A stretch of DNA of 64,000 nucleotides from IMG/VR virus record IMGVR_UViG_3300020378_001929, positions 18,531 to 82,530 of that record; one strand, 5' to 3'. The notes under the pieces are model-generated. The model was not told the origin of the DNA, did no database searches, and worked only from the letters and a program-made list of their open reading frames with translations. This stretch comes from a virus. Below, piece by piece: positions 38,401 through 63,747 of this stretch (position 1 is its first letter; each line of letters opens with the position of its first letter). The position numbers and the translations under genes are program-made.

Positions 38401-38435
38401 TTTCGAATCTCTAATTTGTATGTACGTATAGCCAT
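26457..38435 (-). CDS. Giant virion structural protein (3992 aa)
   Basis: A 3992-residue protein, encoded by the longest gene in the window. The first 100 residues resemble a peptidoglycan-binding-1 fold (VGDIGRDILIVKKALG, then ATFDENMRTHLTKFQ), and near residue 460 DGSYGPQTHFAL is also typical of that family; both calls are tentative. Around 960-1010 there is a hydrophobic stretch (IFGWWMDMIENL, then KILTQFLCAFAKALIDIL) that could be an amphipathic or membrane-active segment. The rest is charged and mixed, with no repeats by eye. It precedes the gp25-like gene by 42 nt in the wedge operon. It could be a hub or baseplate scaffold, or even a tape-measure-type protein, though it lacks the long coiled or repetitive body expected of a tape measure. 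The function is unknown. Confidence 0.78.
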   Translation of the reverse strand: MAIRTYKLEIRNESENNSDKVDFGPRKVGDIGRDILIVKKALGSIVPYESLIDENDRSSDLDSTDGWFDCIEGTKLSQIEAATFDENMRTHLTKFQLDNQFYILCYLFTKFSVNQTFEELNKVKERSFASELRDFRAGSQDENSFAIGLTAFGQIPRLPAEGAHRVDEYLNSEYISTQINLIVRMFDLEFGTLGEATLAVLHGWRPRTRVGNRAYHHDPRVFSDQEGAYDIVLWGLWDSFMRGLLAQKVDPHTPDLLEPRIYIHRERPDYRGDSFKGSQFLERYKEQVSSREEVNFSETEANEEYVIRSSYFGALKYRIIPEDTQSPLYDAFVEVSRVDPRPQESTLMTDSDYTDALHRAFEPDPLIDPDPFEVDLRRIGYFYKTNYTLQELPPVLGADPTEEELENYTSIVSELEDLALTQVLQFYNKPDVWILNPESANFSQIYGPNTFPEPPNHDGSYGPQTHFALTTDTKIQDENLSVNLFLRAQNYKIIEREEFGPPLIKFVEFRTPSLRPGDFYRAKFIINRQKLDLITTGTFVPTNEATAELLSEAETSNNLNEQDSSLRDSINSKISCEGEQLSKEQQERRYQEYRALAARRKREIARSIRESVIEEYNNKNKLERTTVDLGVFGNAEINFGGDGSYASTTQAINTLTELMDSGQDGVFARNEIAGVSNPKLSDLSELKITWDDLTSDIEQAAEKLQKAFKNAQDDGVSITPINFNGNTEASRLRAIIPELRSFITKQTNTGAASSSFDFGSDTSGNMSMSGFLGTTSSIHFRFGTSKDNKGLKIISASFGGKKVSTKKLVQSVPSLKNSRTVGYLAQVDSMAAGNIFSNLPACEDIGFGKPGLAYIVKHTVGVSGTSDGEFNPINRWVTNNIENPIERWKEFKKLNNLDSQLDVKFGVDEYLAVYGKQCITIKQFFETFGNRINPFNLLCDLVKCLKLPNFNFTIPDLNFDIPIDIRIFGWWMDMIENLKEIFMKILTQFLCAFAKALIDILNFPFCEEQLRDQLYGSASEATGDIKKALVEGMMDLSLSSDNVEKSKQLIDEMGLFLTGEEFCRILQGGPIDAPTMNMILSLAARLGIQEVDTEDALRQFFQTISLFLPEEFCENLNRSTTTIRSSSCEETSDLLSQIRRQMLANEASDEEIERAVDLANKNLIDHAKALEVLGREGLNGVLPKILDFGNPDALMNNLPPALSSQVVETAKSIFTPAHVSYVSSLMNFGPSLYIQDTRMPVPGDPEYDERSVIEAQTILQNLKIYAMIGEFADGTVLEKLTAQLNALYQVYEVRKIQGATYPAYYVPPFFGSVTKPPGSGIASNFVAIENSRQLSSIDPSMIFLKPVGFSENLFYYESEDSGVENFPEDLRETGVISLNTMKRSLGSENSHLKDFSFVPAYKLSEYSEGNGIDAAGARLAFINDRIQSRIAFLQASLQSKVESISRPISGRTYLKQIKDVLNASFENQRERSTANSPSSLGQEVVTVNRVSNNADTSREVLTLRMPQRGISTSVSLNEFKSTSATNKFDPYTIVITPGGLFEREQTFEYCDKIPGPGLDVETLTEEQRQNQEIYESGLSDIPPGIYTRKELYARTLWKNVKRKVEKIYGPYQGVNRGEQRHLEKREILNGYLDNFLSNHVYETESKRFSEGIFEQIFFSLSNSRLFDEEGYYPGLNARVSGDAHVDILADGSQCYRNRYNISQFGILAFEKIVTDELDNQINRELAKPENDPYNIDFDDIGPIQKAVQNVCLIGFIRICIVELVLKGAVAYSVWDMESIADEPFTKDFFFRFVEKEINRHPSLSKDWKSTASRITGINQPLFALKDIVQKQMLKVQGISKKIYQNETRADYYNWFIKYFIPQVEVSRFIASVAGDSNPYNIRTVGTRVILDPDGTTRIEEANVAEDARIATDKIYWRHPLLETSQIITEEDDYSTVRDPATYAQNLLNGNHPFFHIEHCIEAEGPLARIENLILPGGALVSGIVNASADLAINRSVLARTANNSTRFEDLLNIGDAFNRTNLDPVNPLDYTFTVRPEIPPRDEDNPFALGASAESSSDLNTEHEIYHIDDFIDGLNGSLNSDDLKKIALHYRGLMHYDEDPDAPGGELKNTQLEEAEGFPETIRRTPTRFITKKRRIIKFTQDIVSHNNSTLLNGKVYADSVINFQDFANDLGYADEFFEPNGSLVNSYYNNFTNYIAKTREDENKYYVLPSNGEDFLWLESQGYNVYQAPNDGRFMDKVLDFSRIGVSNTSGEQPNFSLPTTTTYLDDDPQEKPLQPRAIAATNMQSRYDYGRGMSIEDIEETPERQSNDILTHKYRSDSVPTVIFENPIGIVENETEFERIKDRFENGQEETWVETVFEFSDSASIIAGLHGSFTIGETFDPAVLNFDPNLSPRLKNSFDNLETVIDSLYQPGAFRNAFLDQNKGTADPKLTQYGRVFYLRESDQEGPADVYLARPMGIDPHTNREMTKFWLIDEKQSSLNASFLNLDRLDGEEIEEARQQSKRLVINHSVSDIESGIPPSGEDLLPPNMYKIPIRVLITKIFTGDNLPERVYCKVVPPEYIRNINKLPGDGFTENMEKLHEALREIVNEYVYFIQRARSRRLVVGETENMERLKELYGDVPEFSTDFTRSHGSGVRNESNYELGGSSYYSSIERIYSRVFENETKKASYNSVQELDDLFLDRGQLLTREADFQLGPVFTPQSSFSSKEKYFEDTRRDYRHHMQSVNLFYATREEGIFRGQSRSKVGTLRVIHNLSNIFNWYLKGRQRNTLWGHLSRTSPRPMAGGSTQKYPLSTSYYFHENVHRIGGSANRNDPTYDTVATRYGYAFTRWASATLPRKNRGSYDSGTQGVDGFKSGNNFDEIHRQPGFVTLRPGVENDISSIATEGNPYLSNGAETYQPLQVTDLRNWNYFGTDHFTPSQQEGLISDGLGESLVNYNTLETFNFKNAGASLFYADNTFSLVDLSNFIKSCVQRVLIDSHFPDGEPLGITNRGGPLIQGAPDILFDMDGFYNTQNTNTILSILKKDPENNALFYENINPDTYENENYWPSFNFEGVQVFKNNYQGLNINVELLLEAIDFVDHFVTRLCDLAIYQSSFTLKSEATRDNSHRIEAPYRLSVVKRFIRYLKEYAGPADPYSPQQLLGLLWMVSSYNFSSQVAGFSGGSFNRRITADEPYREGGTLFIPNRDRSFTRNDYNRSGDSYQADWAAACLWFIAALVCRKPEISFARAVQEFPSTDFLFRYNNSGGRPAKWVAPSGGYFSRRHGVRAASNLDSIVTLGENRRNMVTGVREDGRSPLEYWNRLKSEYLNNENLLDRNTLDRVPTSLDFIIEQANEFYHEFYDPNYELGNANAPRQGQYNNLILDKLLNPDFWGREDIPEIYSALFRDALSSYHIEGLMIDSRRELEESDLGIGPLGNSTTISKIAKSTGPFSFVSPRNYRIWNGKVEDYLIFFDERMFENIFNVGINDAAKLKFLNDRIRRNETLRVRSFETIKDYYNYLMPRIYCNDISNLVRTKDNVLRNHAATVRKLKEDWTTAFEGYTGINNRLFGDNFVSIGIINSQVVKDIMGSSKLTQIARLVSNSVLHLSADDDSEEGRYNRFLLDKESPIQEVSEEYRSFLMEGEQNKYFSVPIAEYKKVISDFGEGVNDCIDLNAFRESYKRLQPWMTEQLIESPEAKQLFQYIYPVKRYQAVSTAFITSAFSSYGDLSNFIDTPKASLAALLSIAGINQKQGIEAVNNLSKAEFLKQIMNSNSSDLNAIDCFDFPFPADFTKQFKELLKQLFLQFPSLFFRGIANVVDPAYKEMKGHYNNCDINKLTMEGLQYGPTVRRRNMTAGLHGTAPRSGTKDGKYSSILVGPIVDVPYGVAKLFSSFDYKPLGRAIERLTGYIIKGPVSIVDGNFSLSIPCRDVEESWPSENSPWNLQRYGHSLTPFTVLALSTPELAGDKRFRSCTLDEQQDAPSNANISNCDDENSASPFGTFPDPGEQDD

Positions 38436-42720: not shown

Positions 42721-43496
42721 TTTCTCACCTCTATACTTTGTACTCTACTATCAAAAAAACTAGACTTTACACTATGAAAATGGTGCCTTCTCTTTAAGAG
42801 CATCTGTTCGTAAGATAAGGCTTCGCCAATAGATTTTTTAATATTTTCAACATTCTCTAACTTAAAGATAACTGCCCTAGTTTCAAAAAAGTCTAAAAGT
42901 CCATTACTCCATAGTTCATAAATTAGCTTAGAACTATCTCTAGAGACGGTTCCTCCCATCTTGGTCTGCAAATTGTAGTCTTTAGCTACATTCAAAGTGT
43001 CTCTTACTACATTCATTACGCGGGTGTCGTTTACATTTGCCTTACTCAGTCCCAATGATTTTGATAAGTCTGACCTTCCAACAACAATCCCGCTTAAATT
43101 TTTGTGATGTTTTTTAATTATTTTCTTTGCATTCTTGCATGCTGTTTCTGTTTCCAGATTTACAAATAACTTAGGCGAATAAGGTATTGCAAATAGAGAG
43201 CATCTCTCAGCGACAGAGTCTATAAACTTGGATACAGCGAAGTCAGATTCGACCATTGGGGCAACGATGCCGCGGATCCCCATTCTCAGGCAGGTTTCAA
43301 TATCTCTGTTTGCCTCGCATCCACCTATTTTGACATAAACTTTTAGTTTTGTGTCCCCAGAAAGCAAAATTAAATCATTAAGGTCGGCATCTGTCACCCC
43401 TTCGTCTTCAAATGATGCCTTAAGGGCATGGGCGCCATAATTTGAATTTAAATTTTTTAGTTTATTTGTAATATTATTATTAAACATTCTGTTCAT
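42717..43496 (-). CDS. HpcH/HpaI (citrate lyase beta-type) aldolase
   Basis: A 259-residue TIM-barrel aldolase of the HpcH/HpaI/citrate lyase beta family. Visible signatures are KLKVYVKIGGCEANRD, GIRGIVAPMVES, LFVNLETETAC, LSGIVVGRSDLSKSLGL and a late ETRAVIF strand, which match the family's metal- and pyruvate-binding barrel positions. Members split or join pyruvate or oxaloacetate with an aldehyde using a divalent metal. The gene overlaps the CMP-sugar synthetase-like gene by 17 nt and the HAD gene by 4 nt, so it is part of the sugar island. It might make or degrade a keto-acid sugar or recycle pyruvate; neither is proven. Confidence 0.75.
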   Translation of the reverse strand: MNRMFNNNITNKLKNLNSNYGAHALKASFEDEGVTDADLNDLILLSGDTKLKVYVKIGGCEANRDIETCLRMGIRGIVAPMVESDFAVSKFIDSVAERCSLFAIPYSPKLFVNLETETACKNAKKIIKKHHKNLSGIVVGRSDLSKSLGLSKANVNDTRVMNVVRDTLNVAKDYNLQTKMGGTVSRDSSKLIYELWSNGLLDFFETRAVIFKLENVENIKKSIGEALSYEQMLLKRRHHFHSVKSSFFDSRVQSIEVRK

Positions 43497-44139
43497 CTTT
43501 TAGAAAAAGGAATTCAGCAAAATTAAAGTCTATCATATTATCTATATCTATGGATTCTTTTTCGCTAGTTTTTACAAAGAAAGGATTAATTCCTACAAAA
43601 TTCCTGTTTTTTATCACATTTTCTCTAGAATTAACACAAACACCATAGGTAATTCTTAAAATTTCAGGTAAATCTTGACTATTTGGAGAATTTTGCAGGT
43701 CATAATTTAATGGCTTCTCGTTTAGCCACATATGGTGCTTCACTGGGTGCACTGTTGCAACAGAATCGCAGTTCTCTTTAAAATAAGAAGAAATAGATTC
43801 TTCTATAGTTTCTGGCGTGATGAAAGGACTAGTAGGTGGGGTGTAAACTAAAATTTCAGAATCTATCGATTCTGCCAAATTTTTGAAGAATTCACTCCCA
43901 GTACACTTAGAACTAGCATAATAGTCTTCTCTCTTGTGAGTCTCCACGCTAAGGTTGGAAGCAATTTGTAGCGCTACGGGACAGTCAGAGGAAACAACTA
44001 TTCTAGATAAATTTTTAATCTTTTTTAGAAAACTTATCTTCAACTCCAATAAAGAAGTGCCTCCAAATGGTCGCAGACCCTTGTTGGCAATTCTTACAGA
44101 TCCGGCGCGTACCGGAATGATTGCCGCTATATCAGTCAT
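43480..44139 (-). CDS. CMP-nonulosonate synthetase-like (NeuA/PseF family)
   Basis: A 219-residue cytidylyltransferase of the acylneuraminate family. The nucleotide-binding loop is AAIIPVRAGSVRIANKGLRP at residues 5-24 (canonical form IIPARGGSKRIPRKN). The catalytic metal Asp region appears as SIDIDNMIDFNFAEFLF near the C-terminus (IDIDxxxDxxxAE). The family activates sialic-type acids with CTP to give the CMP-sugar. The usual length is about 220-230 aa, so it is complete. The ATG overlaps the upstream SpsF-like gene by 8 nt. Two further cytidylyltransferase-like enzymes lie nearby, so this one may serve a distinct sugar acid. Confidence 0.85.
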   Translation of the reverse strand: MTDIAAIIPVRAGSVRIANKGLRPFGGTSLLELKISFLKKIKNLSRIVVSSDCPVALQIASNLSVETHKREDYYASSKCTGSEFFKNLAESIDSEILVYTPPTSPFITPETIEESISSYFKENCDSVATVHPVKHHMWLNEKPLNYDLQNSPNSQDLPEILRITYGVCVNSRENVIKNRNFVGINPFFVKTSEKESIDIDNMIDFNFAEFLFLKDEQNV

Positions 44140-44836
44140 CAGCCTCTAGAGCCCTATACATCGCATCGTAAGCTTTGAACTGCCATTCATAATCAACATC
44201 GAAACACTCAACTTCTTCCACGGGAAAAAGTTCAATGTCCCCTTGCTTGTTAAAGTCTCCCATCCATATACCATCATCGACGGTCTTCATCTCTGAAGCA
44301 TACAAACAGTGGGCTGCCTCGTAAGTCAAGTCTACAACTTTAGTGTTTAAAGTTGGCTCACCTTCTGGCCATGGAGTGATAAAGGTTCCTTCGGAGTTCC
44401 AAAAATAATTCTTTTTCTCCATAACAGCGAACAAGCCTCTTGAGTCTGTTTTGAGGTAATGATTTACAAACTTGTCAATTGTGTCTACTTTCAAAAAAGG
44501 AACACAGGCATTAACTAATACAACATACTTGAAAGGCAGTTTATCCCACCACTCATACATATCGCGAATGTGAGACCCTTCTCCGCCGTCCCAGATTGCT
44601 GACTTTTCACTCCTGCGGAAGACATTAACTCCCAAAGACTCTCCAATGTCGACAAGCTCTTGCTCATGTACAGATAAGAAGAAATTTTCTCTTGGAATAA
44701 CCTTTGACTGCAATACTTTTTCACAAGTAATCTGCGTTAGGGTTTTGCCTGCGAAGGGGCGAATCATTTTCTTCGGGCAACGCTCAGAAGAAAGCCTAGC
44801 TTGTACGACGACTGCAACTTCATTTATCTTTTTCAA
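44132..44836 (-). CDS. SpsF-like cytidylyltransferase, copy A
   Basis: A 234-residue protein of the SpsF/CMP-NeuAc synthetase-like group. It opens with EVAVVVQARLSSERCPKKMI, the SpsF form of the CTP-binding loop, and has the late acidic metal site in VECFDVDYEWQFKAY. It is clearly paralogous to the 228-aa protein at 49567-50253: the QARLSS-x-RCP, NYFW and EAAH segments and the final DYEWQF/DHEWQF stretch are shared. It starts at TTG with an excellent site (AGGGAGA, 6 nt spacing). Bacillus SpsF belongs to spore-coat polysaccharide clusters that also contain a NeuB-like enzyme. It likely activates a sugar acid; the substrate is unknown. Confidence 0.8.
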   Translation of the reverse strand: MKKINEVAVVVQARLSSERCPKKMIRPFAGKTLTQITCEKVLQSKVIPRENFFLSVHEQELVDIGESLGVNVFRRSEKSAIWDGGEGSHIRDMYEWWDKLPFKYVVLVNACVPFLKVDTIDKFVNHYLKTDSRGLFAVMEKKNYFWNSEGTFITPWPEGEPTLNTKVVDLTYEAAHCLYASEMKTVDDGIWMGDFNKQGDIELFPVEEVECFDVDYEWQFKAYDAMYRALEADD

Positions 44837-44838
44837 AA

Positions 44839-45204
44839 TTAATCTCCCTTTTCTACCCTGTAACTATCTTCATCAAAATGCTCAGTTGAAAACTCAAAAA
44901 GCTCAGTGTCTTCTAGTGCAATCATTCTATGAATCTGACCAACTGGGACGTGCCATACGTCACCTTTTGTTAATATCACTGATTTAGCATTGTTAATATC
45001 TTTGTCTTTCTCTGACCAGAGAAGCTTAATCTTTCCAGATTGGATGTAAAAAGTTTCATCCTTTACCTTGTGAAAGTGCCAGGAACATTTCTTGCCTTTA
45101 AAGAAAAACAAAAGTTTTCCACAATATTGTTCCTTATTTACAACCCACTTTTCATAGCCCCAGCCTTTAGAGACGTATACGATATTGTCAGTTTGAAGAG
45201 ACAC
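44839..45204 (-). CDS. Cupin-fold protein, sugar-isomerase-like
   Basis: A 121-residue single-domain cupin. The metal-binding motif 1 is CSWHFHKVKDETFYIQSGK, with ligands H43, H45 and E50; motif 2 is GDVWHVPVGQIHRM, with H85 and H92. The N-terminal stretch KGWGYEKWVVN resembles the start of mannose-6-phosphate isomerase-type cupins found in sugar clusters. It may be an epimerase or isomerase or a small-molecule binder; the substrate is not evident. It starts at GTG, overlapping the NeuB gene's stop by 17 nt, and ends 2 nt before the SpsF-like gene, which places it in the nonulosonate island. Confidence 0.82.
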   Translation of the reverse strand: MSLQTDNIVYVSKGWGYEKWVVNKEQYCGKLLFFFKGKKCSWHFHKVKDETFYIQSGKIKLLWSEKDKDINNAKSVILTKGDVWHVPVGQIHRMIALEDTELFEFSTEHFDEDSYRVEKGD

Positions 45205-46078
45205 TCTTTCCGCCTTCGAAGTACCTCAGTTTGTTTGCAACAGGTATTTCGTGTTGAAGGAATTCTTTTTGTCCAGTTCCCATCGTGTTTGTGACACTTC
45301 TCGACTCTCGAACTAGTCTTGTGAGTTCAGGAGATTCAATAGAGGCAGACTGATCTGACCCATACATATTTCTATCGAGAGTAATGTGTCTCTCCAGCGC
45401 GACTGCGCCGAGAGACACCGCCAACAGTGAAGGTAAGATTCCCTCTTCGTGACCACTGTACCCCACAGGGCAACCATACCTTTCTCTCAAGGTTCCAATT
45501 AAATTGATATTACAATCTTCATCTTTGCATGGATACGTCGAAACGCAATGAAATAGAGTAAATGGACAATTTGAGTCTCTAAAAATCTTAACTGCTTCAT
45601 CAATATCCTTAAAAGTGCTCATACCAGTTGAAATAAAGGTGTGCTTACCCTCTGAAGCGATCTCCTGGAGGAGGTCAGAATGTGTCAACATAGCCGATGC
45701 TACTTTGTTAAACGGTAAATCATACTGTCTCAAGAATTTTTGACTATTGATATCCCAAGCCGAGGCGGACCACAGGATGCCCTTCTCTTTGCAGTAATCT
45801 GCAATTTGGTCGTACTCTTCTTTTCCAAACTCTAGACCCTCCTTTTGATCGCGCTGGGTGGTTCCCCAGGGAGATTGCCTGGCTGATGCTAAGTATTCTT
45901 GGGTGTAAACGACGTCAATGTCTCTTTTTTGAAATTTAACTGCTTGGCACCCAGAATCAACTGCTAGATCAATCAATCTCTTTGTTAATTCTATATCTCC
46001 GTTGTGATTAATGCCGATTTCGGCAATAAAAAATGGCATATTCAAAGTGTCATTATATGGATTGAATCCTTGGCTCAT
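45188..46078 (-). CDS. NeuB-type nonulosonate synthase without SAF domain
   Basis: A 296-residue TIM-barrel synthase of the NeuB family. Family segments seen are FFIAEIGINHNGDIELTKRL (start of the barrel), AVKFQKRD, LFHCVSTYPCKDEDCN, GYSGHEEG and ALERHITLDRNMYGSDQ. The enzyme condenses phosphoenolpyruvate with an N-acyl amino sugar to make a nine-carbon acid. It ends near FLQHEIPVANKLRYF, lacking the C-terminal SAF (antifreeze-like) domain present in the second synthase of this window and in most family members. The ATG has a strong AGGAGA site. It overlaps the cupin by 17 nt. Confidence 0.87.
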   Translation of the reverse strand: MSQGFNPYNDTLNMPFFIAEIGINHNGDIELTKRLIDLAVDSGCQAVKFQKRDIDVVYTQEYLASARQSPWGTTQRDQKEGLEFGKEEYDQIADYCKEKGILWSASAWDINSQKFLRQYDLPFNKVASAMLTHSDLLQEIASEGKHTFISTGMSTFKDIDEAVKIFRDSNCPFTLFHCVSTYPCKDEDCNINLIGTLRERYGCPVGYSGHEEGILPSLLAVSLGAVALERHITLDRNMYGSDQSASIESPELTRLVRESRSVTNTMGTGQKEFLQHEIPVANKLRYFEGGKSVSSN

Positions 46079-46105
46079 TGTGTCTCCTGTTTTATTATTA
46101 TATTA

Positions 46106-47080
46106 TTAGTCGGAAAGTTTTTTTGTTATTTCCGAGGACATGTTATGTGGGTATGTTTCCCCTATGTTTTTAAATATAACATTATTTTCTTGAAAATTCA
46201 AGTAATAATCCCAAAAAACTACAGTTTCCCTTCTTTGAAAATCAAAAGTGTAATTTGCAGATATTTTTAGTTTCTTGTCTTTTTCAAAAGCGTGTGGACC
46301 TGCGTGCAGATTCTCAATTTGTTCTGCCGTCCATCCATCCATTCCCACTACTTTAACTTGTTTTGCGCCTAATAAAGACGCTAATGCGACCATTTTAGGG
46401 GCGGCACCGGATGTTAGGAATAATCTCAAATTGAAAAACATTGTTTTGCAATTTTCATCCATAAAACTTTGAACTAAAAATTCGGGTCGCGAAATTGAAG
46501 TATCGATTGCGCAAATGGTGTCATGTTTTTTTATATAAGCACTTAACTCAGCTATTCCCATATGCGTTTCGGCGTTTACATAGAACATGTCCACTTTACA
46601 CTCTAAGAGTTTATCATTTTTATAGAAATGATTGCAAGACCAGGTAAAATCCCTCTCCTCGTTTTCCCAGTCGCAGTACGAAGTTGATGGTCCCCCACCA
46701 ACTACAAGTATTGTGCTGTCCTTGTATTTTTCTAATCCTGGCAACGCCTGATAAAACCCGTCTGGGTCAACGTTTATTTGTTGCTTGGTACTCAAGTGTC
46801 TCGAAAATTTGCTTAGTGACTGTAAACCATATTTTTCATTCGACAAAAAATTATTCCTTGAATCTAAAAAAGAAGCTTCATTTGGGATCTGAGAGTTAAT
46901 ATATGTATCATCAGCGCTGAATATTTTTGGGTTCTTTGTGTCATACCAAACATTATATTTTGGTGTGTGCCCTATCCTTTTAACAAAGTCTTCATACATC
47001 TTCTCTGTTGATATATCTATTGGCTCGCATATCACTTTTCTTTTAGCGTCATATATTTTTAAACATCCTAACCAATTCAT
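46106..47080 (-). CDS. MptE/DUF115 (Maf-like) protein, possible nonulosonate transferase
   Basis: A 324-residue protein. Residues about 115-260 contain TILVVGGGPSTSYCDW, the nucleotide-binding start of the MptE/DUF115 fold, followed by SCNHFYK, VDMFYVNAETH and, later, KVVGMDGWTAEQ. The fold includes the Maf proteins that transfer pseudaminic or legionaminic acid to flagellins in Campylobacter and relatives. The first 100 residues are variable. The ATG overlaps the carbamoyltransferase stop by 4 nt. Because two NeuB-type synthases are close by, a role in transferring the finished sugar is plausible; it is inferred from fold and context. Confidence 0.7.
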   Translation of the reverse strand: MNWLGCLKIYDAKRKVICEPIDISTEKMYEDFVKRIGHTPKYNVWYDTKNPKIFSADDTYINSQIPNEASFLDSRNNFLSNEKYGLQSLSKFSRHLSTKQQINVDPDGFYQALPGLEKYKDSTILVVGGGPSTSYCDWENEERDFTWSCNHFYKNDKLLECKVDMFYVNAETHMGIAELSAYIKKHDTICAIDTSISRPEFLVQSFMDENCKTMFFNLRLFLTSGAAPKMVALASLLGAKQVKVVGMDGWTAEQIENLHAGPHAFEKDKKLKISANYTFDFQRRETVVFWDYYLNFQENNVIFKNIGETYPHNMSSEITKKLSD

Positions 47081-48756
47081 TTCTTTTCCACCATATAATC
47101 ACCAACAACTAAAACGTCTATGTTTGTATTTTGAAAGCAGGCGTATGCGTCCTCAGCGCTATTCACTATTGGCTGACCTTTAACATTGAAGGACGTATTC
47201 AACAATATTGGATAACCAGTAAGTTTTTTAAACTCTTTTATTAGGTCTCGAAATTTAGGATTAAGGTCACCGACTGTTTGAACTCTTGCCGAGTTGTCCA
47301 CGTGGACTACTGCTGCTATATCTTCTGCTTTATCTGCTACAGCCTGCACAGCCATGAGCATGTGCGGAGATTCTTGCTCAATATCAAACCAGGTGGATGC
47401 ATCTTCTTCTAGTACCGCAGGTGCAAAGGGTCTAAACGGCTCTCTGAACTTAACTCTTGCGTTAACGTGATCCTTTATACTAGCTGGTGCTGGACGGGAG
47501 AGTATGCTTCTGTTTCCCAAGGCGCGTGGACCGAACTCGGCTGGACCTTGGTGCCAGCCTATAATTTTTCCCTGCTCTAAGTGTTTTGCAACTTTTGAGA
47601 GATCTTGGTTTAATTTTATAAACTTTATACCATTTTTTAGAAAGTACTTTTCCACATCTTCATCGGTTTGTCTGTGTCCTAGGTAAAAATTGTGCTCTTT
47701 TACTGGTTTTAAATCTTTGTTTATTTTCTTTGCAGATAGATAACAGGCACCTATTGATAAGCCGTTGTCCCCGGATCCGGGTTGTACAAATATTTCTTCA
47801 AAAATTTTACTCTTCAGTATTTTCCCGTTTAAAGAACAATTTAGACCCACTCCGCCTGCGATACACAATTTTTTATAGCCATATCTATTGTAGGCTTTTT
47901 TTAGCATCCCTATAACAACCTCTTCTAGTCTATCCTGCAAGCCGGCTGCGATGTCTTTGTGATTTTGAGTTATTTCGTCTTTCCATTCTCTTTTTGGTCC
48001 AAAAGCGGAAATAAATTTATCACTTACAAATTTGCTCCTAACTTCATGAAATGCAATCCAATCTGTATTTATTTTTATATCGAAGTCGTTTTCAACCTTT
48101 ATGATATTTCTAAATACATCCAAATAAGTAACTGGTTTATTTTCAACTTTCACAGTATTAGAAGAATCTCCTAATGGAGCCAAACCCATAACGATCCCCT
48201 CATCATACATAGGTTTCCAACCTAGATAATAAGTTATTGAGGAGTATACCAAACCTAGAGAGTTTGGCCATGGGTTTCCGGGGTGCAGAACTTCTATATC
48301 TCCGTCTTTACCTGACGCGAACATAGAGCACATCTTCTCTCCTACTCCGTCGTTACTCATAAGCAAACTCTCACTAAAACCACTGGGGTAGTAAGCACTT
48401 GCAATATGAGCCATGTGATGAGGGTGGAATTCAACTTTTCCAGAATAACCCACTTCATCTAAAAGCTTCTTGCAAAAAACCGCCTCTGTTGGCAAGTCTC
48501 GTCTCATTTTTCGAATTGGTCCATGGTGATTCAAGAGAAGTTCTGGCTTGTATGCAAAACTGGCAACCGTTACATCCTCTATTTTTAAGCCCGCTATAGA
48601 TAAACAATCCTTTATTGCGTTCGTTGGAAATGCTCTTGTGTGCTTTTCTCCTATATATCTCTCTTCTTCGCATGCTGCAATGAGTTTGCCTTCTATCATA
48701 ATGGCTGCTGACGTGTCATGACCGCCCCAATTAATACCTAAAATAATGCTTTTCAT
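47077..48756 (-). CDS. Carbamoyltransferase, NodU/CmcH/TobZ family
   Basis: A 559-residue O-carbamoyltransferase. The N-terminal Kae1-like domain begins IILGINWGGHDTSAAIMIEG, with EEERYIGEKHTRAFP and the His-rich FHPHHMAHIASAYYPSGF metal site. The middle has CIAGGVGLNCSLNGKI, and the C-terminal domain ends in the family's REPFRPFAPAVLEED and LLNTSFNVKGQPIV stretches. The length equals the family norm (about 550-600). It transfers a carbamoyl group from carbamoyl phosphate to a sugar hydroxyl. In this island it probably decorates a glycan. It is flanked by two MptE-like genes with 1-4 nt spacing. Confidence 0.9.
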   Translation of the reverse strand: MKSIILGINWGGHDTSAAIMIEGKLIAACEEERYIGEKHTRAFPTNAIKDCLSIAGLKIEDVTVASFAYKPELLLNHHGPIRKMRRDLPTEAVFCKKLLDEVGYSGKVEFHPHHMAHIASAYYPSGFSESLLMSNDGVGEKMCSMFASGKDGDIEVLHPGNPWPNSLGLVYSSITYYLGWKPMYDEGIVMGLAPLGDSSNTVKVENKPVTYLDVFRNIIKVENDFDIKINTDWIAFHEVRSKFVSDKFISAFGPKREWKDEITQNHKDIAAGLQDRLEEVVIGMLKKAYNRYGYKKLCIAGGVGLNCSLNGKILKSKIFEEIFVQPGSGDNGLSIGACYLSAKKINKDLKPVKEHNFYLGHRQTDEDVEKYFLKNGIKFIKLNQDLSKVAKHLEQGKIIGWHQGPAEFGPRALGNRSILSRPAPASIKDHVNARVKFREPFRPFAPAVLEEDASTWFDIEQESPHMLMAVQAVADKAEDIAAVVHVDNSARVQTVGDLNPKFRDLIKEFKKLTGYPILLNTSFNVKGQPIVNSAEDAYACFQNTNIDVLVVGDYMVEKK

Positions 48757-48757
48757 A

Positions 48758-49570
48758 TTATAACTCTCTAGTTTCTAGTACCTTACTTAAAAGTGTCTCT
48801 TTTGGATTTGAGGCGCTGAAGATCTTCATTTGATGTAAGTTTTCCCAGTTTTTCCACATCTTTATTATACCCAATGGTATTTGAATTACTTCTCCTTTTT
48901 GTGTTTGATCATTCCAAGGATGGCGAGCGTCGTCGCTGTAGAACCTGGGTCCGAACATATCAAATCCAACAACATATAATTCAGACGCCCTCAAATAAGA
49001 ACACACTGGAAAAACAGCAGAACTTAATTTGTTCTCTAGGCCCCATTTGAATTGTGTTCCAACAACTTGTTCAGAATCGAAAGGGATAGATCCTATTATT
49101 ACTTTTTCGTGCATAAATCTATAAAATGGATTTTCTCCAAATATAGAACCGGGAAGTGGTTTTTTTTGTTTTGATAAAAACTTTGTTGTTGTTATTGGAA
49201 GTATTTCTAAACTGCAGTAGTTCTTAACTTGCTCCAATAAGTCCTGCAAAACTTGCCAACCGTCTTTTTCTCTCAAAAGAGGAGAAGTTCCAAAATAAGC
49301 TCTAAATGTAGCAGTGTTTGTCGTAAAAATATCAGGAACCAGTATTTTTGTCTTAAGCTGTTTTTTTTGTTCTATGATATACTTCATACCCTCTAGAAAA
49401 GCGTACGGATCCGCTGCTGTCCAGTAATCTGGTTCGATATCGAACATTTGCATGCAATGAGGAAAAGTGCGCTGAAATGCTAAAACGCTATAGTTTTCTT
49501 GTCTCTCTTTTATGTCTGATGACATTGTTTTCAGAGAATGTCCAGGTCCTAAAACCAATAACTTTTTCAT
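48758..49570 (-). CDS. MptE/DUF115-like protein (270 aa)
   Basis: A 270-residue protein from the ATG at 49568-49570 (MKKLLVLGPGHSLKTM). This start overlaps the upstream stop by 4 nt (ATGA) and has an AGGGGG site about 10 nt upstream; a longer reading would run 33 nt further into that gene. The G-P-G-H-S loop, the later DIEPDYWTAADPYAFLEGM and the SELYVVGFDMFGPRF segment follow the MptE/DUF115 pattern, although it is divergent. It may bind a nucleotide sugar as a transferase. Its neighbours are the carbamoyltransferase and an SpsF-like enzyme. The family call is moderate. Confidence 0.62.
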   Translation of the reverse strand: MKKLLVLGPGHSLKTMSSDIKERQENYSVLAFQRTFPHCMQMFDIEPDYWTAADPYAFLEGMKYIIEQKKQLKTKILVPDIFTTNTATFRAYFGTSPLLREKDGWQVLQDLLEQVKNYCSLEILPITTTKFLSKQKKPLPGSIFGENPFYRFMHEKVIIGSIPFDSEQVVGTQFKWGLENKLSSAVFPVCSYLRASELYVVGFDMFGPRFYSDDARHPWNDQTQKGEVIQIPLGIIKMWKNWENLHQMKIFSASNPKETLLSKVLETREL

Positions 49571-50253
49571 TGGTGAAAACCCCCTTGATATAAGGTATTG
49601 CACATCTCAAACTGCCATTCATGATCAATGTCTAAGCATTCCCGCTCATCAATTTCCCAAAAAATTACGTCACCTTGTTTAGTCAAATCTCCCATCCATC
49701 GATTGTTTCCTATATCCTGAAGTAAACCTGCATACAAAACATGTGCAGCCTCATAAACAAATGAAGCTTCCTTTGTGTTCATAGATGATCCGACCTCTGT
49801 AAGAATCTTTCCATCCGGAGACCAAAAGTAATTGTTTTTCTTAATAACGGCAAACAAGCCATTTCTCTCTTCTTTTAGATGTAAATAATCACTAAAGAAT
49901 CGTTCTATTGTTTCTACTTTCAAAAAAGGACAACATGCATTTATCATTACAACATTCTTAAACGGTATTTTATCCCACCATTCGAAAACCTCACTTATTG
50001 GATGACCTTCCGACATGGCAGACTTTTTACTTCTTTTAAAAATATTAAACGGATATTTTTTGCCGATAGACAAAAGTTCTGGCTCATGTACTGCTAGATA
50101 AATATTTTTGTTTGGTATATTACTCTTTTCCAATTTCTTCAGTAATACATCCATTAGTGTGCTGTTAGCAAAGGGTCGGACCATCTTTCCAGGACATCGA
50201 GTAGAACTTAATCTTGCTTGAACAATAACACAAACTTCTTCACTTAATTTCAT
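49567..50253 (-). CDS. SpsF-like cytidylyltransferase, copy B
   Basis: A 228-residue paralog of the 234-aa protein at 44132-44836. It opens EEVCVIVQARLSSTRCPGKM and ends with the acidic metal site RECLDIDHEWQFEM. Shared segments include MINACCPFLKVETIERF versus VNACVPFLKVDTIDKF and FVYEAAHVLYA. Both copies are full length and keep the loop and the acidic site, so neither looks decayed. The two copies lie about 5 kb apart in the same island, each near a NeuB-type synthase, which suggests two parallel routes or two products. It follows the formyltransferase gene by 12 nt. Confidence 0.8.
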   Translation of the reverse strand: MKLSEEVCVIVQARLSSTRCPGKMVRPFANSTLMDVLLKKLEKSNIPNKNIYLAVHEPELLSIGKKYPFNIFKRSKKSAMSEGHPISEVFEWWDKIPFKNVVMINACCPFLKVETIERFFSDYLHLKEERNGLFAVIKKNNYFWSPDGKILTEVGSSMNTKEASFVYEAAHVLYAGLLQDIGNNRWMGDLTKQGDVIFWEIDERECLDIDHEWQFEMCNTLYQGGFHQ

Positions 50254-50265
50254 AATTTTATTTTA

Positions 50266-51018
50266 CTACTCGCGAGACAGGATTTCAAACAATTCTGATA
50301 TCTTTTGATCGTGAGAATTTATATTTTTCAAAATTTTCTTTGTTTGTTGTGGGTTTTCTTTTATTGCAATACGAAGTAGATCCATCCAATTTACGTTGTT
50401 CTTTGTTCGAACACTCTCTATTTCATCTATAATTTTCAGATCTGCCGCTGTTCTTAGGTTTTCTATTTTTTTCACTTTTGTACTCCATTTGTCTTTCATA
50501 TTTTTGAATAATGATTCAAATTCTTTATGTCGGTGGGTTGTCGCTTTACTTTCATTTTGCTTTACTGGGGTGTAGTTTCCTCTTTTTATTGATTCCCACT
50601 TACTGATGAAAAGACTTGTCGCTTCTTGCTTTAATCTATCATAAGTTTTTTTAAGGTCATCTTCTTCCTTCGAAAAAACAATTTTTTTCTGATATATAAT
50701 ATCTCCTGTATCTAAACCTTCATCTACCTCGTGTATGGTTACTCCTTTTGGGGTATTGTCGTAGAAACTCCAAAAGTTAGGATCACTGCCCCGGTTCCAT
50801 GGTAAGTAAGATATATGGATGTTTATTGTTCTAAACCTAGAGAATATTTCTTTTTTTATGAGGTGACGATAGCCATAGCTAACAATTAAGTCTGGTTCTG
50901 AATTTTTTAAATTTATTGGACCGACTTCGTAGGTTACGTCACAACCTTCTTTGATAAACAGAGTGTCGAGGTTTGGATCCCGGGGTCCCAAGTATAGCAC
51001 TTTAAATTGTTTATTCAA
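50266..51018 (-). CDS. Sugar N-formyltransferase-like protein
   Basis: A 250-residue protein with a formyltransferase core. The family triad is in place: N66 and H68 in RTINIHISYLPWNRGSDP, and D103 in DEGLDTGDIIY. The reaction uses N10-formyltetrahydrofolate to formylate an amino group. A charged C-terminal extension (about 150-250) lacks the usual second domain of methionyl-tRNA formyltransferase, which favours a sugar substrate. The start is TTG, with GGAAAAAGATA upstream, and overlaps the NeuB-type gene's stop by 8 nt. It could replace the acetyltransferase step of the pseudaminic or legionaminic route. Confidence 0.8.
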   Translation of the reverse strand: MNKQFKVLYLGPRDPNLDTLFIKEGCDVTYEVGPINLKNSEPDLIVSYGYRHLIKKEIFSRFRTINIHISYLPWNRGSDPNFWSFYDNTPKGVTIHEVDEGLDTGDIIYQKKIVFSKEEDDLKKTYDRLKQEATSLFISKWESIKRGNYTPVKQNESKATTHRHKEFESLFKNMKDKWSTKVKKIENLRTAADLKIIDEIESVRTKNNVNWMDLLRIAIKENPQQTKKILKNINSHDQKISELFEILSRE

Positions 51019-52009
51019 TATCTTTTTCCGTTACAAAATCATCGAAAGCAATTTTTTTGTTAGCAATGGCGCCTAAAGTGCTATAGTATTTTGAAGCATG
51101 AATGTTACCATCTAAGAATGGTCTTTTTGTAGTGGTGTTACTTTGTGTTAATATCTCGCCCTTCTCAACATTTCGAGTTGTGACGACTGACCTCATAGCT
51201 TTAGAAAATCGACTTTCACTGTCAGTTAACATGCTTTCGGTATCTTTACACATCTTTTCTGATAATCTTATATTTTTTATCATAACGTTAAGCTCTTCTG
51301 GTTCAAGCGCGAAGGGATGATCCGGACCATAAAGTCTTTTGGAGATTGTATAGTGTTTCTCTATACAGGTGGCACCTTTAGCAACCGCCAATGAGGGCGC
51401 TAATATGCCCTCTGTGTGATCTGAAAGTCCAACTTTAATGTCTTCATACATTTCCTTGATGGACTCTATTCTATTTAGGTTTATGTCCTTATCAGGAGTT
51501 GGGTAGGCATTGTTGCAGTGCAATATTGTTATGTCTGGATTTTTTTGTTCTTCTGATACCCACTGTATGATATCTCCTATTGACAAAAGGTTGTTTCCTA
51601 TTCCTGCGGAGGCAATAATCGGCAGACCTGCGGAGGCTACCATCTTCACAAATCTAGGGTCAGTAGACTCAAAGCCTGCGATCTTTAGCCTCTTAACTCC
51701 CAGTGACACCAACTCTTCAACTGCTGCTTCATCAAATGGTGTAGACATAAACTCGATCCCATTATCATCGCAATACATCTTCAAGTCTTTTTGCCAGGTT
51801 CTGGGTAATTCAATTTCTTTTATTAGTTTGTTTATGTTTTTATATCCAGCGAAGTCCGGAGTATTTTTCGAATAAAGGGTTTCTGATGAATATGTTTGGA
51901 ATTTAACTGCGTTTGCGCCGGCGCCCACTGCAATGTCTATTAAGATTTTTGCCTGTTTAAAATCTCTATTGTGATTGGCGCCTGCTTCTGCTATGACGAA
52001 TACACTCAT
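51011..52009 (-). CDS. NeuB/PseI-type nonulosonate synthase with SAF domain
   Basis: A 332-residue synthase. Residues 1-260 are the TIM barrel: FVIAEAGANHNRDFKQAK, AVKFQTYSSETLYSKN, GIEFMSTPFDE, ILHCNNAYPTPDKDINLN, GLSDHTEG, CIEKHYTISKRLYGPDHPFA. Residues about 262-332 form the SAF (antifreeze-like) domain (FSKAMRSVVTTRNVEKGEIL). The layout is that of full PseI/NeuB enzymes, so it likely condenses phosphoenolpyruvate with an amino sugar. It overlaps the aminotransferase gene by 44 nt, yet the conserved MSVFVIAEAG start and a GGAG about 10 nt upstream support it. Confidence 0.9.
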   Translation of the reverse strand: MSVFVIAEAGANHNRDFKQAKILIDIAVGAGANAVKFQTYSSETLYSKNTPDFAGYKNINKLIKEIELPRTWQKDLKMYCDDNGIEFMSTPFDEAAVEELVSLGVKRLKIAGFESTDPRFVKMVASAGLPIIASAGIGNNLLSIGDIIQWVSEEQKNPDITILHCNNAYPTPDKDINLNRIESIKEMYEDIKVGLSDHTEGILAPSLAVAKGATCIEKHYTISKRLYGPDHPFALEPEELNVMIKNIRLSEKMCKDTESMLTDSESRFSKAMRSVVTTRNVEKGEILTQSNTTTKRPFLDGNIHASKYYSTLGAIANKKIAFDDFVTEKDIE

Positions 52010-60695: not shown

Positions 60696-61463
60696 ATGAA
60701 CAGAAAAATCCTTTTTTTATTCTCCATTCTTTCCCTAATTTGCGCTTCTTGCTCAATTTCTCAAAAAATAACTAATTTACAAAATCCACCAGTGGATTAT
60801 TTTGTTAAAATTTTTAAAGACTTAGAAGTGACCAGATGTTCAAAAAAAGACAACTCTTGTGAAACTAAAAAGTTTATTTCTACAGGAAGTGGGCTCGTAA
60901 TTAGAATTTCCAGCTTGTTTCAAAATGTAGTTTTGAGTGCTGGACATGTTTGTACAGAAGACGGATTAATCCCAGAAAATGAAAAATATAAGTTTTCTTG
61001 GGTTGAGACAATAAGGGTTTTAGACAGAAATAAAAATTTTCACGATGGGCACGTAATACTTTCCCAACAAGCAAGTGGCAAAGCATCTGATCTATGTTCT
61101 ATATATGTACCCACGCTAGATTATTTTAAATACAAGTCCAACATAAGTATATCCGATTCCAAACCAAAAATTGGGGAAAAAATATATTACATTGGTGCAC
61201 CATTAGGGATTCACCACCCACCAACCGCTTTAATAATTGATGGAATATTTAGTGGAGAAATAGATGAATTTTCCTCATTAACATCACTGAGGGCTGCGCC
61301 GGGGGCAAGTGGCTCGGTGGTATTGTCTAATAGAAATAAAATATATGGAGTTCTTTTTGCTGTGCATCCAAACTTTCAGAGTGCCACAATAATCACAAAT
61401 CACAGTAAAACCAAAGATTTCATACTGAAAACAAAACAAGCACTAATTGCACAGCCTAACTGA
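60696..61463 (+). CDS. Trypsin-like serine protease lipoprotein
   Basis: A 255-residue protein on the plus strand, the only gene in the window so oriented. Residues 1-19 (KILFLFSILSLICASC) form a lipoprotein signal with C19 as the likely lipidated cysteine, though the -3 residue is an unusual Cys. The trypsin-fold triad is visible: H84 in VVLSAGHVC, D132 in ASDLCSIY and S205 in APGASGSVV. It would act at the membrane or in the periplasm. No clear ribosome-binding site precedes the ATG. Its 3' end overlaps the opposing gene's 3' end by 8 nt. The orientation suggests a separately controlled accessory gene. Confidence 0.82.
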   Translation: MNRKILFLFSILSLICASCSISQKITNLQNPPVDYFVKIFKDLEVTRCSKKDNSCETKKFISTGSGLVIRISSLFQNVVLSAGHVCTEDGLIPENEKYKFSWVETIRVLDRNKNFHDGHVILSQQASGKASDLCSIYVPTLDYFKYKSNISISDSKPKIGEKIYYIGAPLGIHHPPTALIIDGIFSGEIDEFSSLTSLRAAPGASGSVVLSNRNKIYGVLFAVHPNFQSATIITNHSKTKDFILKTKQALIAQPN

Positions 61464-61774: not shown

Positions 61775-62428
61775 TCAAATCAACTCATCTACTAGACCAT
61801 ATTCCAAACACTTTTCAGCTTCCCACCAAAGGTCATGCTTTAAAATGTTGTCAAGTTCTTCTTGTGGAATTTTTGTATGTTGTCTATAAATATTCTTTAT
61901 TTTATTCATAAGCATCTCTGAATTTTGCATATCGTCTTGCATTTCTTGAAACTTTCCCCACATTAACCCAGAAAGCTGATGTATCAGCATACAAGAATTT
62001 TTGTGCATATAGCGCCTGGATCCTACAATCGACATCAAAGTGGCAGCTGATGCTGCGCATCCGTCAATAATAGTGTGAACTGGGATTTTAGAGTTCTTTA
62101 TATAATCTACTGCTGACAAACCTGCAAAGACTGATCCACCGTAACTATTGATATGTAATTTAATCGGGGGTGGATCATATTCTAGGGGGGTAGATTTCGA
62201 AATCATATTAAAATTAAGATTAAAAATTCCCTTATTTAATCTCAGTATTTTTGGTCGGGTCACACCCGAATAGAAGTATATTCTATTATGACTAAAGTCA
62301 ACTGCGTTATTATCAGTAGAAGAATGCCCTCTTGATTCCCTAGTAAATTCATGGGGAGTAATCGCGGCGCGTTCCGACTCTGGTGCATCCGAGTCTTCTT
62401 CCTTTGATCCCCAAAATAAATCTCTCAT
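61775..62428 (-). CDS. clpP: ClpP-type serine protease
   Basis: A 217-residue ClpP-like protease. The triad appears as S127 in DGCAASAATLM, H150 in CMLIHQLSG and D199 in LKHDLWWEA. LHINSYGGSVFAGLSAVDYI is the family's oxyanion and substrate segment. The N-terminus (about 50 residues) is charged and longer than in host ClpP. The ATG at 62426-62428 has AGAGGA upstream; an earlier GTG start would lie within the tRNA and is rejected. It may mature capsid or other phage proteins or redirect host proteolysis. It lies 19 nt downstream of the tRNA. Confidence 0.9.
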   Translation of the reverse strand: MRDLFWGSKEEDSDAPESERAAITPHEFTRESRGHSSTDNNAVDFSHNRIYFYSGVTRPKILRLNKGIFNLNFNMISKSTPLEYDPPPIKLHINSYGGSVFAGLSAVDYIKNSKIPVHTIIDGCAASAATLMSIVGSRRYMHKNSCMLIHQLSGLMWGKFQEMQDDMQNSEMLMNKIKNIYRQHTKIPQEELDNILKHDLWWEAEKCLEYGLVDELI

Positions 62429-62447: not shown

Positions 62448-62524
62448 TGGTGGACCCCCACGGACTTGAACCGTGAACCTGCCGGTTATGAGCCGGATGC
62501 TCTAACCTATTGAGCTAGAGGTCC
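62448..62524 (-). tRNA. tRNA with anticodon CAU, probably tRNA-Ile2 (lysidine-type)
   Basis: A 77-nt cloverleaf with encoded CCA. Acceptor stem GGACCTC pairs with GGGGTCC (one U-G); the D stem is GCTC/GAGC; the anticodon loop is CTCATAA with anticodon CAU; the T stem is CACGG/CCGTG with TTCAAGT. C4-G69 and C5-G68, which E. coli TilS uses to tell tRNA-Ile2 from tRNA-Met, are both present, and position 27-43 is a T-C mismatch where E. coli tRNA-Ile2 also has a non-pair. The tilS gene is immediately upstream. It would read AUA after lysidine is added. tRNA-Met is the alternative. Confidence 0.8.
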
Positions 62525-62544
62525 ATAATGGTTCTATTTTACAA

Positions 62545-63150
62545 CTATTTTACATAAAGTTCAAGTACTTTTTTTCTAATTGTTTTCCTAATTCCGGGAT
62601 TCACCTTCAAGACTTGAGGAACAATGTTTAACCTTACGTGATTTCTCATAAAATTTGTATGCTGGTTGGAGGGGTCCTCTATCCATGATATGTTTTTATT
62701 GGCAGCATACTTTTTGATACTTGATTTTTCTGTCAAAAGAAAAGGTCTATAAACGTCAGTGCATCTTCGAAATGGTATAATTTTTGCGGTCCCATGGAAA
62801 CTAGACATTAACCAAGTCTCAACGCAATCATCTAAATGGTGGCAAGTAATCGTATAATTGCTATCTAAACTATTAAGAAACGAGTACCTTTCATCTCTCC
62901 AAAACTCCTCTAAAGATCTCTTTCCTTTAAAATTTTTCACTTTTCCAATATGAAGATTTAACTTATGCTCTTCCGCGTACTGTTCTACAAAAAGTTGTGA
63001 CTTTCTTGCGTGTGCTGTATCGTGGTTAAAATAAGCTAATTCTATTTTTCTTTTACCTTGCATTAAAAAATGGGTAAAAACCATAGAATCGATTCCGCCA
63101 GAACAAGCAATGGTTACTTTGCGGGGAATTTTACCAATTATCCTAATCAT
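62545..63150 (-). CDS. tilS: tRNA-Ile-lysidine synthase, short form (TilS)
   Basis: A 201-residue PP-loop ATPase. The adenylation loop is TIACSGGIDSMV (S17-S22). TilS-type segments are TCHHLDDCVETWLM at about 102-115, IPFRRCTDVYRPFL, ISWIEDPSNQ and MRNHVRLNIVPQV. It changes C34 of tRNA-Ile(CAU) to lysidine so it reads AUA and takes isoleucine. Most bacterial TilS are 300-430 aa with C-terminal domains; this one keeps only the N-terminal catalytic part, which might suffice for a fixed partner tRNA. It directly precedes that tRNA, separated by 20 nt. Confidence 0.87.
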   Translation of the reverse strand: MIRIIGKIPRKVTIACSGGIDSMVFTHFLMQGKRKIELAYFNHDTAHARKSQLFVEQYAEEHKLNLHIGKVKNFKGKRSLEEFWRDERYSFLNSLDSNYTITCHHLDDCVETWLMSSFHGTAKIIPFRRCTDVYRPFLLTEKSSIKKYAANKNISWIEDPSNQHTNFMRNHVRLNIVPQVLKVNPGIRKTIRKKVLELYVK

Positions 63151-63156
63151 GCAATA

Positions 63157-63185
63157 AGTATAAACTAGTGCAATTTATTTGTCAA
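63157..63185 (-). promoter_or_regulatory. Near-consensus sigma70 promoter for tilS-tRNA-clpP
   Basis: On the minus strand, a perfect TTGACA (63180-63185), a 17-nt spacer and TATACT (63157-63162, one mismatch to TATAAT). The predicted transcription start falls at or within a base or two of the tilS ATG at 63150, so the mRNA would be leaderless or nearly so. It needs no phage factor, consistent with early expression. This is the best promoter match in the window. Confidence 0.75.
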
Positions 63186-63192
63186 GGAAAAA

Positions 63193-63747
63193 CTACCATT
63201 TTCTACAAGACCAATATCTTGCTTTCCATTTTGGTCCAGGGGATTTACAGTTGTGCCTTGCTCTGAATGATTTTCTTCTTTTGGGATTAGATTTTTTAAT
63301 TCTCATATTTTTATCGCCAAAGTTAACTTTGACAACATTTCCCTTCGCATTTTTTACATACACTTTAAATTTTTTAACGTCGCCCTGCATAGGCTTATTT
63401 AGCGTTACTTTACGACCGCGGTATTCGGCTTCGGGAATCAAATCTGGACACCCACATGACGCGTCTGATAATATCTCATACAAACATTGAGGACACGGAG
63501 TTTCAGAATTTTCATCAATTGCGTCCTGCAAAGCTTCATAGAGATTTTGAAACTCGTCTACAATTGCGTAGTCTTCCGTGTCAATCAATTCTTTTAAGTT
63601 TTCGTTAATACTTTCTTCTGGTAGATTATCTTTTATAAACTGATCCAGCAAATCTTTTGGTATTCTTGAAACTAGGGCTCCGAGTTGCGTGTCTGACAAC
63701 TCAACTTCAGTGTCTGCTTCTTCTATGAAAATTCTGTATTTTTCCAT
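63193..63747 (-). CDS. Unknown cysteine-containing basic-tail protein (184 aa)
   Basis: A 184-residue protein. The acidic N-terminal half is helical (LKELIDTEDYAIVDEFQNLY). A possible metal knuckle follows, with C85 and C88 (PCPQC) and C98 and C100 (CGC). The C-terminal 70 residues are basic and end KRRKSFRARHNCKSPGPKWK and RYWSCRKW, with H165, C167 and C181 possibly forming a second site. I recall this tail in several uncharacterised phage proteins but cannot check. Nucleic acid or capsid contact would fit. The tilS promoter lies in the 42-nt gap after it. Confidence 0.65.
   Translation of the reverse strand: MEKYRIFIEEADTEVELSDTQLGALVSRIPKDLLDQFIKDNLPEESINENLKELIDTEDYAIVDEFQNLYEALQDAIDENSETPCPQCLYEILSDASCGCPDLIPEAEYRGRKVTLNKPMQGDVKKFKVYVKNAKGNVVKVNFGDKNMRIKKSNPKRRKSFRARHNCKSPGPKWKARYWSCRKW

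Follow-up and report, generated by a model that had tools for sequence, protein, structure and literature searches.

A linked tilS and tRNA-Ile2 gene pair as a probable AUA-decoding cassette in a T4-like phage and its relatives

Results and Discussion

A short phage tilS gene lies beside a CAU tRNA gene

The virus record IMGVR_UViG_3300020378_001929, which we class as a distant T4-like tailed phage, encodes a short tRNA(Ile)-lysidine synthase (TilS) directly upstream of a CAU tRNA, and the two genes very probably form a compact AUA-decoding cassette. In the mechanism that we propose, transcription from a promoter directly before the tilS start codon would yield a probably leaderless tilS mRNA that continues into the tRNA gene, and host RNases would free the tRNA from this transcript. 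Before modification, the CAU tRNA would be charged with methionine and read AUG; the catalytic-domain-only PP-loop enzyme would activate C34 with ATP and join lysine to it, and the resulting lysidine-bearing tRNA would take isoleucine and read AUA, the commonest isoleucine codon of the phage. The advantage during infection would be that an enzyme carried with the tRNA keeps a surge of newly made tRNA-Ile2 from exceeding the capacity of the host TilS and acting as a methionine tRNA. We regard the cassette as real, conserved and probably functional.

The window, that is, the whole 64,000-nucleotide stretch that was analysed, covers bases 18531–82530 of the 82,530-base record. The phage terminase resembles phrog_2 and the portal protein phrog_213, and TerL shares 44% identity with that of Flavobacterium phage immuto. 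The features of the locus, in window coordinates, are:

63193..63747, gene upstream of tilS: 184-aa protein of unknown function (phrog_7595)
63157..63185, minus strand: promoter TTGACA-17-TATACT (11/12 match; position kept in relatives)
62545..63150, minus strand: tilS, 201-aa tRNA(Ile)-lysidine synthase, catalytic N-terminal domain only (TIGR02432, PF01171, AlphaFold2/Foldseek, motifs)
62525..62544, minus strand: 20-nt spacer from the tilS stop codon to the tRNA (sequence)
62448..62524, minus strand: tRNA-Ile2 (CAU) with encoded CCA; a Met label comes from the anticodon alone (ARAGORN, Rfam, identity pairs, covariation)
61775..62428, minus strand: ClpP-like head maturation protease, next gene downstream of the tRNA (PF00574; phrog_94)

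The 184-aa gene is likewise on the minus strand, on which the order is tilS, 20 nt, the CAU tRNA, 19 nt and the head protease (start at 62428); ARAGORN detects this tRNA (62448–62524) as the only one in the record. The initial annotation, made from the sequence alone, had placed a short TilS gene 20 nt upstream of a CAU tRNA, and TIGR02432, PF01171, ARAGORN and Rfam bear out both genes at the correct coordinates. Its central proposal, that TilS and a linked tRNA-Ile2(CAU) of the phage's own form a unit for decoding AUA, is upheld by the class to which the tRNA belongs, by the consistency with which the two genes are conserved and occur together, by the high AUA use and by the tRNA-Ile(UAU) that several TilS-less relatives carry.

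Elsewhere, the window holds two ORFs of 3949 and 3992 aa (10403–22252 and 26457–38435, minus strand), a gene block that by eye resembles sialic-acid-type sugar synthesis, with NeuB-like and CMP-sugar-synthetase-like genes (43480–52009, minus strand), and a trypsin-like peptidase (PF13365) with a lipoprotein-like start (60696–61463, plus strand), the plus strand bearing very few genes.

The gene pair is conserved among related phages

About 20 related phages have kept the pair. A tRNA follows tilS in all 17 of the closest TilS-bearing contigs, at 13–25 nt in 16 and at 633 nt in one, and each of these 17 records has one CAU tRNA, with no other tRNA within the loci. This recurrence despite near-saturated synonymous divergence argues that the pair is not a chance association, and so do the compensatory changes seen in the stems of the tRNA.

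To obtain loci that were not chosen by tilS, we used the head-protease gene as a synteny anchor. The first 16 protease-anchored loci comprise 13 with both genes, two with neither (L253 and L259) and one whose contig starts at the tRNA (L249). In a wider protease-anchored set of 50 contigs, tilS is present in 23, all of which also carry a CAU tRNA. Across 63 protease-anchored loci, a CAU tRNA occurs in 19/19 with tilS versus 8/44 without (Fisher, 4e-10, computed on related, non-independent rows). Four loci of distant TilS phages have the tRNA downstream of tilS, at 5 (L097), 11 (L036), 43 (L041) and 262 nt; in most other distant TilS-bearing phages, no CAU tRNA is found within 8 kb of tilS.

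A conserved promoter abuts the tilS start codon

The TTGACA-17-TATACT element matches the consensus at 11 of 12 positions, its −10 box stops 6 nt short of the tilS ATG, and it is the only 11/12 site that near an ORF start in the record. In 10 of 18 relatives, a promoter scoring 10/12 or better occupies this position, versus 0.14 expected in shuffled sequences even at 9/12. The promoters of the phage are sigma-70-like, and with the usual sigma-70 spacing, a −10 box ending 6 nt before the ATG predicts that the transcript starts at the tilS AUG, i.e., a leaderless mRNA. Leaderless-type promoters at tilS recur in two groups of diverged phages, among them in L018, L019, L020, L021, L024, L032, L033 and L034, as well as in L038, L042, L046 and others. 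For distant TilS phages, 47 distinct upstream regions were compared, and in 17 of them the distance from the −10 box to tilS is again exactly 6 nt; these 17 belong mostly to one related group and have a different upstream element. A −10 box at this distance is rare at other ORFs of these loci.

No terminator-like site is seen between tilS and the tRNA, and from this and the conserved tilS promoter we infer that the two genes are co-transcribed. The single transcript assumed by the initial annotation is thus favoured by both features, as a prediction. The same leaderless promoter layout was also observed in L029, L031 and L032 before genes that by eye resemble IscU/IscA-type iron–sulphur proteins.

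AUA codon use in phages with and without the pair

Most bacteria use AUA sparingly. In the whole record, AUA accounts for 44.6% of isoleucine codons, an observed/expected ratio of 1.05 with the expectation taken from third-position A content; heavy AUA use was the condition under which the initial annotation held an AUA-decoding unit to make sense. The all-AUA isoleucines of a nearby 54-aa peptide, cited there, are correctly counted (4/4) but anecdotal, tilS having 5/17 and the protease 5/18. The median observed/expected ratio is 1.13 in paired phages; it drops to 0.61 in distant TilS phages and to 0.48 around the tilS genes of bacteria, and TilS-less relatives range from 0.71 to 0.88. The paired phages, unlike bacteria, show no AUA avoidance. 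The pair-less siblings L253 and L259 are equally AUA-rich (38–41% of isoleucine codons over their contigs), indicating that the pair accompanies the AUA-rich state and is not required for it. For the same reason, the idea that AUA richness results from the pair is unsupported within the clade.

Some TilS-less relatives carry other predicted AUA-reading tRNAs

A tRNA-Ile(UAU) needs no lysidine. Such a tRNA is located near the protease in 10/44 TilS-less loci versus 0/19 TilS-bearing ones (Fisher, 0.025, again on related rows), and in the five loci checked, the UAU tRNAs score 59–67 bits in Rfam. Mutual exclusion of tilS and the UAU tRNA is weak statistically, with no power on independent pairs. 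The CAU tRNAs near the protease in 8 of the 44 TilS-less loci include some of the Ile2 kind and are presumably modified by the host TilS. Neither a CAU nor a UAU tRNA was found in 28 of the 63 protease-anchored loci, within the locus stretch covered. This distribution suggests three alternative routes to AUA reading: tRNA-Ile(UAU), tRNA-Ile2 by itself, or tRNA-Ile2 accompanied by TilS. In one subclade, tilS may have joined the tRNA only later and then been lost a few times, a direction that we infer.

The tRNA-Ile(UAU) of one of the two pair-less siblings (G147), considered as a clean replacement, was downgraded, as it is called by ARAGORN only and has no Rfam match; the case for a UAU alternative is therefore based on other relatives, whose UAU tRNAs are better. 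Irregular tRNA-Ile(UAU) candidates were noted at L271:1339–1415 (minus strand; called by ARAGORN with encoded CCA, no Rfam match, odd D-arm) and in the TilS-bearing G108 (contig positions 46101–46142), the latter a pattern match only.

The head-protease gene is itself a tRNA hot spot (L305, L306, L308, L311, L313, L321, L335, L340 and L347), with tRNAs for Arg(UCU), Ile(UAU) or CAU, Thr(UGU), Asn(GUU) and Leu(UAA) on either side of it. Near the protease, TilS-less relatives often carry tRNA-Arg(UCU), Thr(UGU), Asn(GUU), Leu(UAA) and tmRNA. Relatives have a complete tmRNA gene, mostly a few kb upstream of tilS (RF00023, 119–130 bits where scanned), at L007:1943–2250, L019:224–534, L021:3494–3804, L023:6384–6693, L030:4867–5173, L032:1273–1577, L253:4023–4331 and L271:8098–8385; the encoded tags begin with AND or ANN (e.g., ANDDVENFEDFALAA).

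These tRNA and tmRNA genes would fit a general rescue of translation and thereby a different reason for the same chemistry: it is possible, although we think it rather unlikely, that the pair restores tRNA-Ile2 after degradation of host tRNAs or an anticodon-cleaving defence, instead of matching AUA use. According to published work, phage tRNAs can escape defences that target tRNAs and can stand in for host tRNAs that have been degraded (PMC10264068, PMC11555353), and a further study on this theme is outlined in summary form in PMC13191261. However, the CUCAUAA anticodon loop is identical to that of bacterial tRNA-Ile2, so that no evasive loop change is visible; the tRNA of the pair is the sole CAU tRNA in the 17 closest records and the sole tRNA in their loci; and AUA use is raised in exactly the paired phages. 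We therefore retain the AUA-decoding cassette as the preferred reading.

The phage TilS comprises the catalytic domain only

Bacterial TilS must separate tRNA-Ile2 from tRNA-Met, both with a CAU anticodon, and its C-terminal domains are thought to be responsible. The phage TilS scores 123.4 bits against TIGR02432 (lysidine_TilS_N; curated cut-off 93.6) and 118 bits against Pfam PF01171. It features the motifs SGGIDS, HHLDDCVET and DPSN...RNHVR, and S17, G18, G19, D21, S22 and other motif residues are invariant across 40 viral TilS sequences. Its AlphaFold2 model (pLDDT 95.6, pTM 0.90) finds Aquifex TilS (2e21/1wy5) and E. coli TilS (1ni5) as top Foldseek matches; the five best PDB matches are all TilS (E 5e-15 to 2e-13, TMq 0.80–0.86), with TtuA next at 3e-9. 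Accordingly, the model points to a TilS fold and not to that of TtcA, TtuA or MnmA, and the profile matches place the protein in the TilS catalytic-domain family.

The protein stops after the catalytic domain (residue 201) and contains neither CTD1 nor CTD2. Type I TilS has both CTD1 and CTD2, type II has CTD1, CTD2 contacts the acceptor stem, and the known active TilS enzymes have at least CTD1 (PMC12514573). By its domain content, the phage protein is neither type I nor type II, and we file it under the TilS catalytic-domain family alone; since the known active enzymes have at least CTD1, it could have changed its substrate or need a partner.

A length of 189–233 aa is found in all 80 nearest viral relatives, and the bacterial relatives are mostly 404–511 aa long, at no more than 36% identity. 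Profile searches recovered TilS relatives in 530 viral contigs. In a quick tree with bacterial rows picked by similarity, the sampled viral proteins cluster together, apart from the nearest bacterial TilS (SH-aLRT 99) and separated from it by a long stem, which places the phage TilS in what appears to be a phage-only lineage. PHROGs v4 holds no family matching it at E 0.001. The gene is under purifying selection (pN 0.14–0.26 versus pS 0.72–0.97).

The long stem and the missing C-terminal tRNA-binding domain would also suit a PP-loop enzyme with a new role, e.g., another modification of C34, and aminovaleramide provides a precedent for a different C34 modification in other AUA-reading tRNAs (PMC11938285). 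We consider such a change of function improbable, because every top match by family or by fold is a TilS, clearly apart from TtcA, TtuA and MnmA, and the linkage to tRNA-Ile2 points to C34 of the linked tRNA. Lysidine synthesis thus remains the favoured activity of the enzyme.

The linked tRNA has the features of tRNA-Ile2

The CAU tRNA is called by ARAGORN, scores 65.7 bits against the Rfam tRNA model and has an encoded CCA. It features the anticodon loop CUCAUAA, A73, G1-C72, C4-G69, C5-G68, C11-G24, U12-A23, C29-G41, A37 and A38, of which we take C4-G69, U12-A23, C29-G41, A37, A38 and A73 to be identity elements of E. coli IleRS as well. As a reference, bacterial CAU tRNAs from 81 genomes were divided into an Ile2-like class (G68-G69) and initiator and elongator Met classes; the Ile2 label itself uses the acceptor pairs and is anchored on one annotated E. 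coli gene. The E. coli Ile2-class sequence is annotated as tRNA-Ile in 4/4 genomes among the matches listed (5390 matching genomes). On these features, the phage tRNA is assigned to the tRNA-Ile2 class and appears distinct from initiator tRNA-Met and, against a small reference set, from elongator tRNA-Met: the elongator marks C3-G70 and U4-A69/A5-U68 and the initiator marks (unpaired 1-72, A11-U24) are absent from it. Within the close phage clade, every paired tRNA is Ile2-class, one with U5.G68, and each has an Ile2-class sequence as its nearest bacterial match, the tRNA of the window at just 77% versus 71%. The stems covary among 19 relatives, with 97% of cells paired and 59 double-sided changes versus 19 in shuffles.

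The initial annotation had taken C4-G69 and C5-G68 as a match between tRNA and enzyme. Both pairs are present and mark the Ile2 class, but they are no proof of a match to the phage enzyme, because it is CTD2 that reads them and the phage TilS has no C-terminal domain; the phage tRNA could also be served by the host TilS. The tRNAs adjoining tilS in L097 and L041 are devoid of C4-G69, in keeping with recognition that does not involve the acceptor stem. The proposed 27–43 mismatch exists in the window tRNA as U.C, but it is not as in E. coli tRNA-Ile2, which has a G27.U43 wobble, and position 27–43 varies, being unpaired in 11 of 19 phage tRNAs; we thus rejected it as an Ile2 mark.

That the gene is instead an elongator or initiator tRNA-Met lying beside tilS by chance, with TilS acting on host tRNA-Ile2 only, is very improbable: anticodon-based tools do label it Met, and the many TilS phages devoid of a nearby CAU tRNA suggest that the enzyme may act on tRNAs encoded elsewhere, but its acceptor, D-stem (C11-G24/U12-A23), anticodon-loop and A73 pattern is that of Ile2 and not Met, the nearest bacterial sequences are Ile2-class throughout the paired clade, and the tilS–tRNA linkage is too consistent.

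Comparison with known TilS systems

The type II TilS of Aquifex aeolicus and Mycobacterium smegmatis (NTD and CTD1) shares the PP-loop catalytic domain of the phage protein (A. aeolicus TilS: phmmer 1e-25, Foldseek TMq 0.85) but is about 315 aa long owing to CTD1. The TilS of PA5oct/MIJ3 was reported in 2019 as the first from a phage (PMC6892783). The proteins of these Pseudomonas jumbo phages (Wroclawvirus), which are also AUA-rich, belong to the same short lineage (46% identity); their tilS, however, is unpaired, lying ~7–10 kb from the CAU tRNAs of a tRNA cluster, and those tRNAs do not have C4-G69. In 2020, TilS was described in 39/41 chloroviruses and explained by an AUA use 12–13 times that of the host (PMC7589089); these viruses infect eukaryotic algae, and that report, in the passages considered here, describes TilS as acting on Met tRNA and mentions no dedicated tRNA-Ile2 gene linked to it. 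The 349-aa TilS (ORF84) of Ralstonia phage RsoM2USA, reported in 2021 from a tRNA-rich jumbo-phage genome, is longer than the 201-aa protein and best matches bacterial TilS (PMC8504454); a search with the 201-aa protein did not return it. According to a summary in PMC13191261, a vibriophage CAU tRNA carries lysidine at C34, and host enzymes are thought there to modify the phage tRNAs, whereas here the phage supplies the enzyme.

In the open-access literature, we found no phage tilS described as paired with a tRNA-Ile2 gene of the same phage, and no report of a CTD-less TilS lineage or of a leaderless tilS. The view that a linked, matched enzyme is unusual thus holds for the linked cassette, which, like the CTD-less lineage, looks new; it does not extend to phage TilS (MIJ3, RsoM2USA) or to viral TilS explained by AUA use (chloroviruses), both already published.

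Implications for AUA decoding by phages

Phages may have evolved a third class of lysidine synthase, a bare catalytic domain that would read tRNA-Ile2 without a C-terminal domain and that, in some lineages, would be encoded next to the tRNA it modifies, the two forming a leaderless cassette for AUA decoding that could be exchanged for tRNA-Ile(UAU); we put the chances of this broader proposal at about even. With 530 contigs, the catalytic-domain-only lineage makes the minimal requirement for the choice between tRNA-Ile2 and tRNA-Met directly testable and offers small natural enzyme–tRNA pairs for this purpose. Here, a phage would bring along both a modifying enzyme and the tRNA that needs it, and related phages would use a tRNA that avoids the modification.
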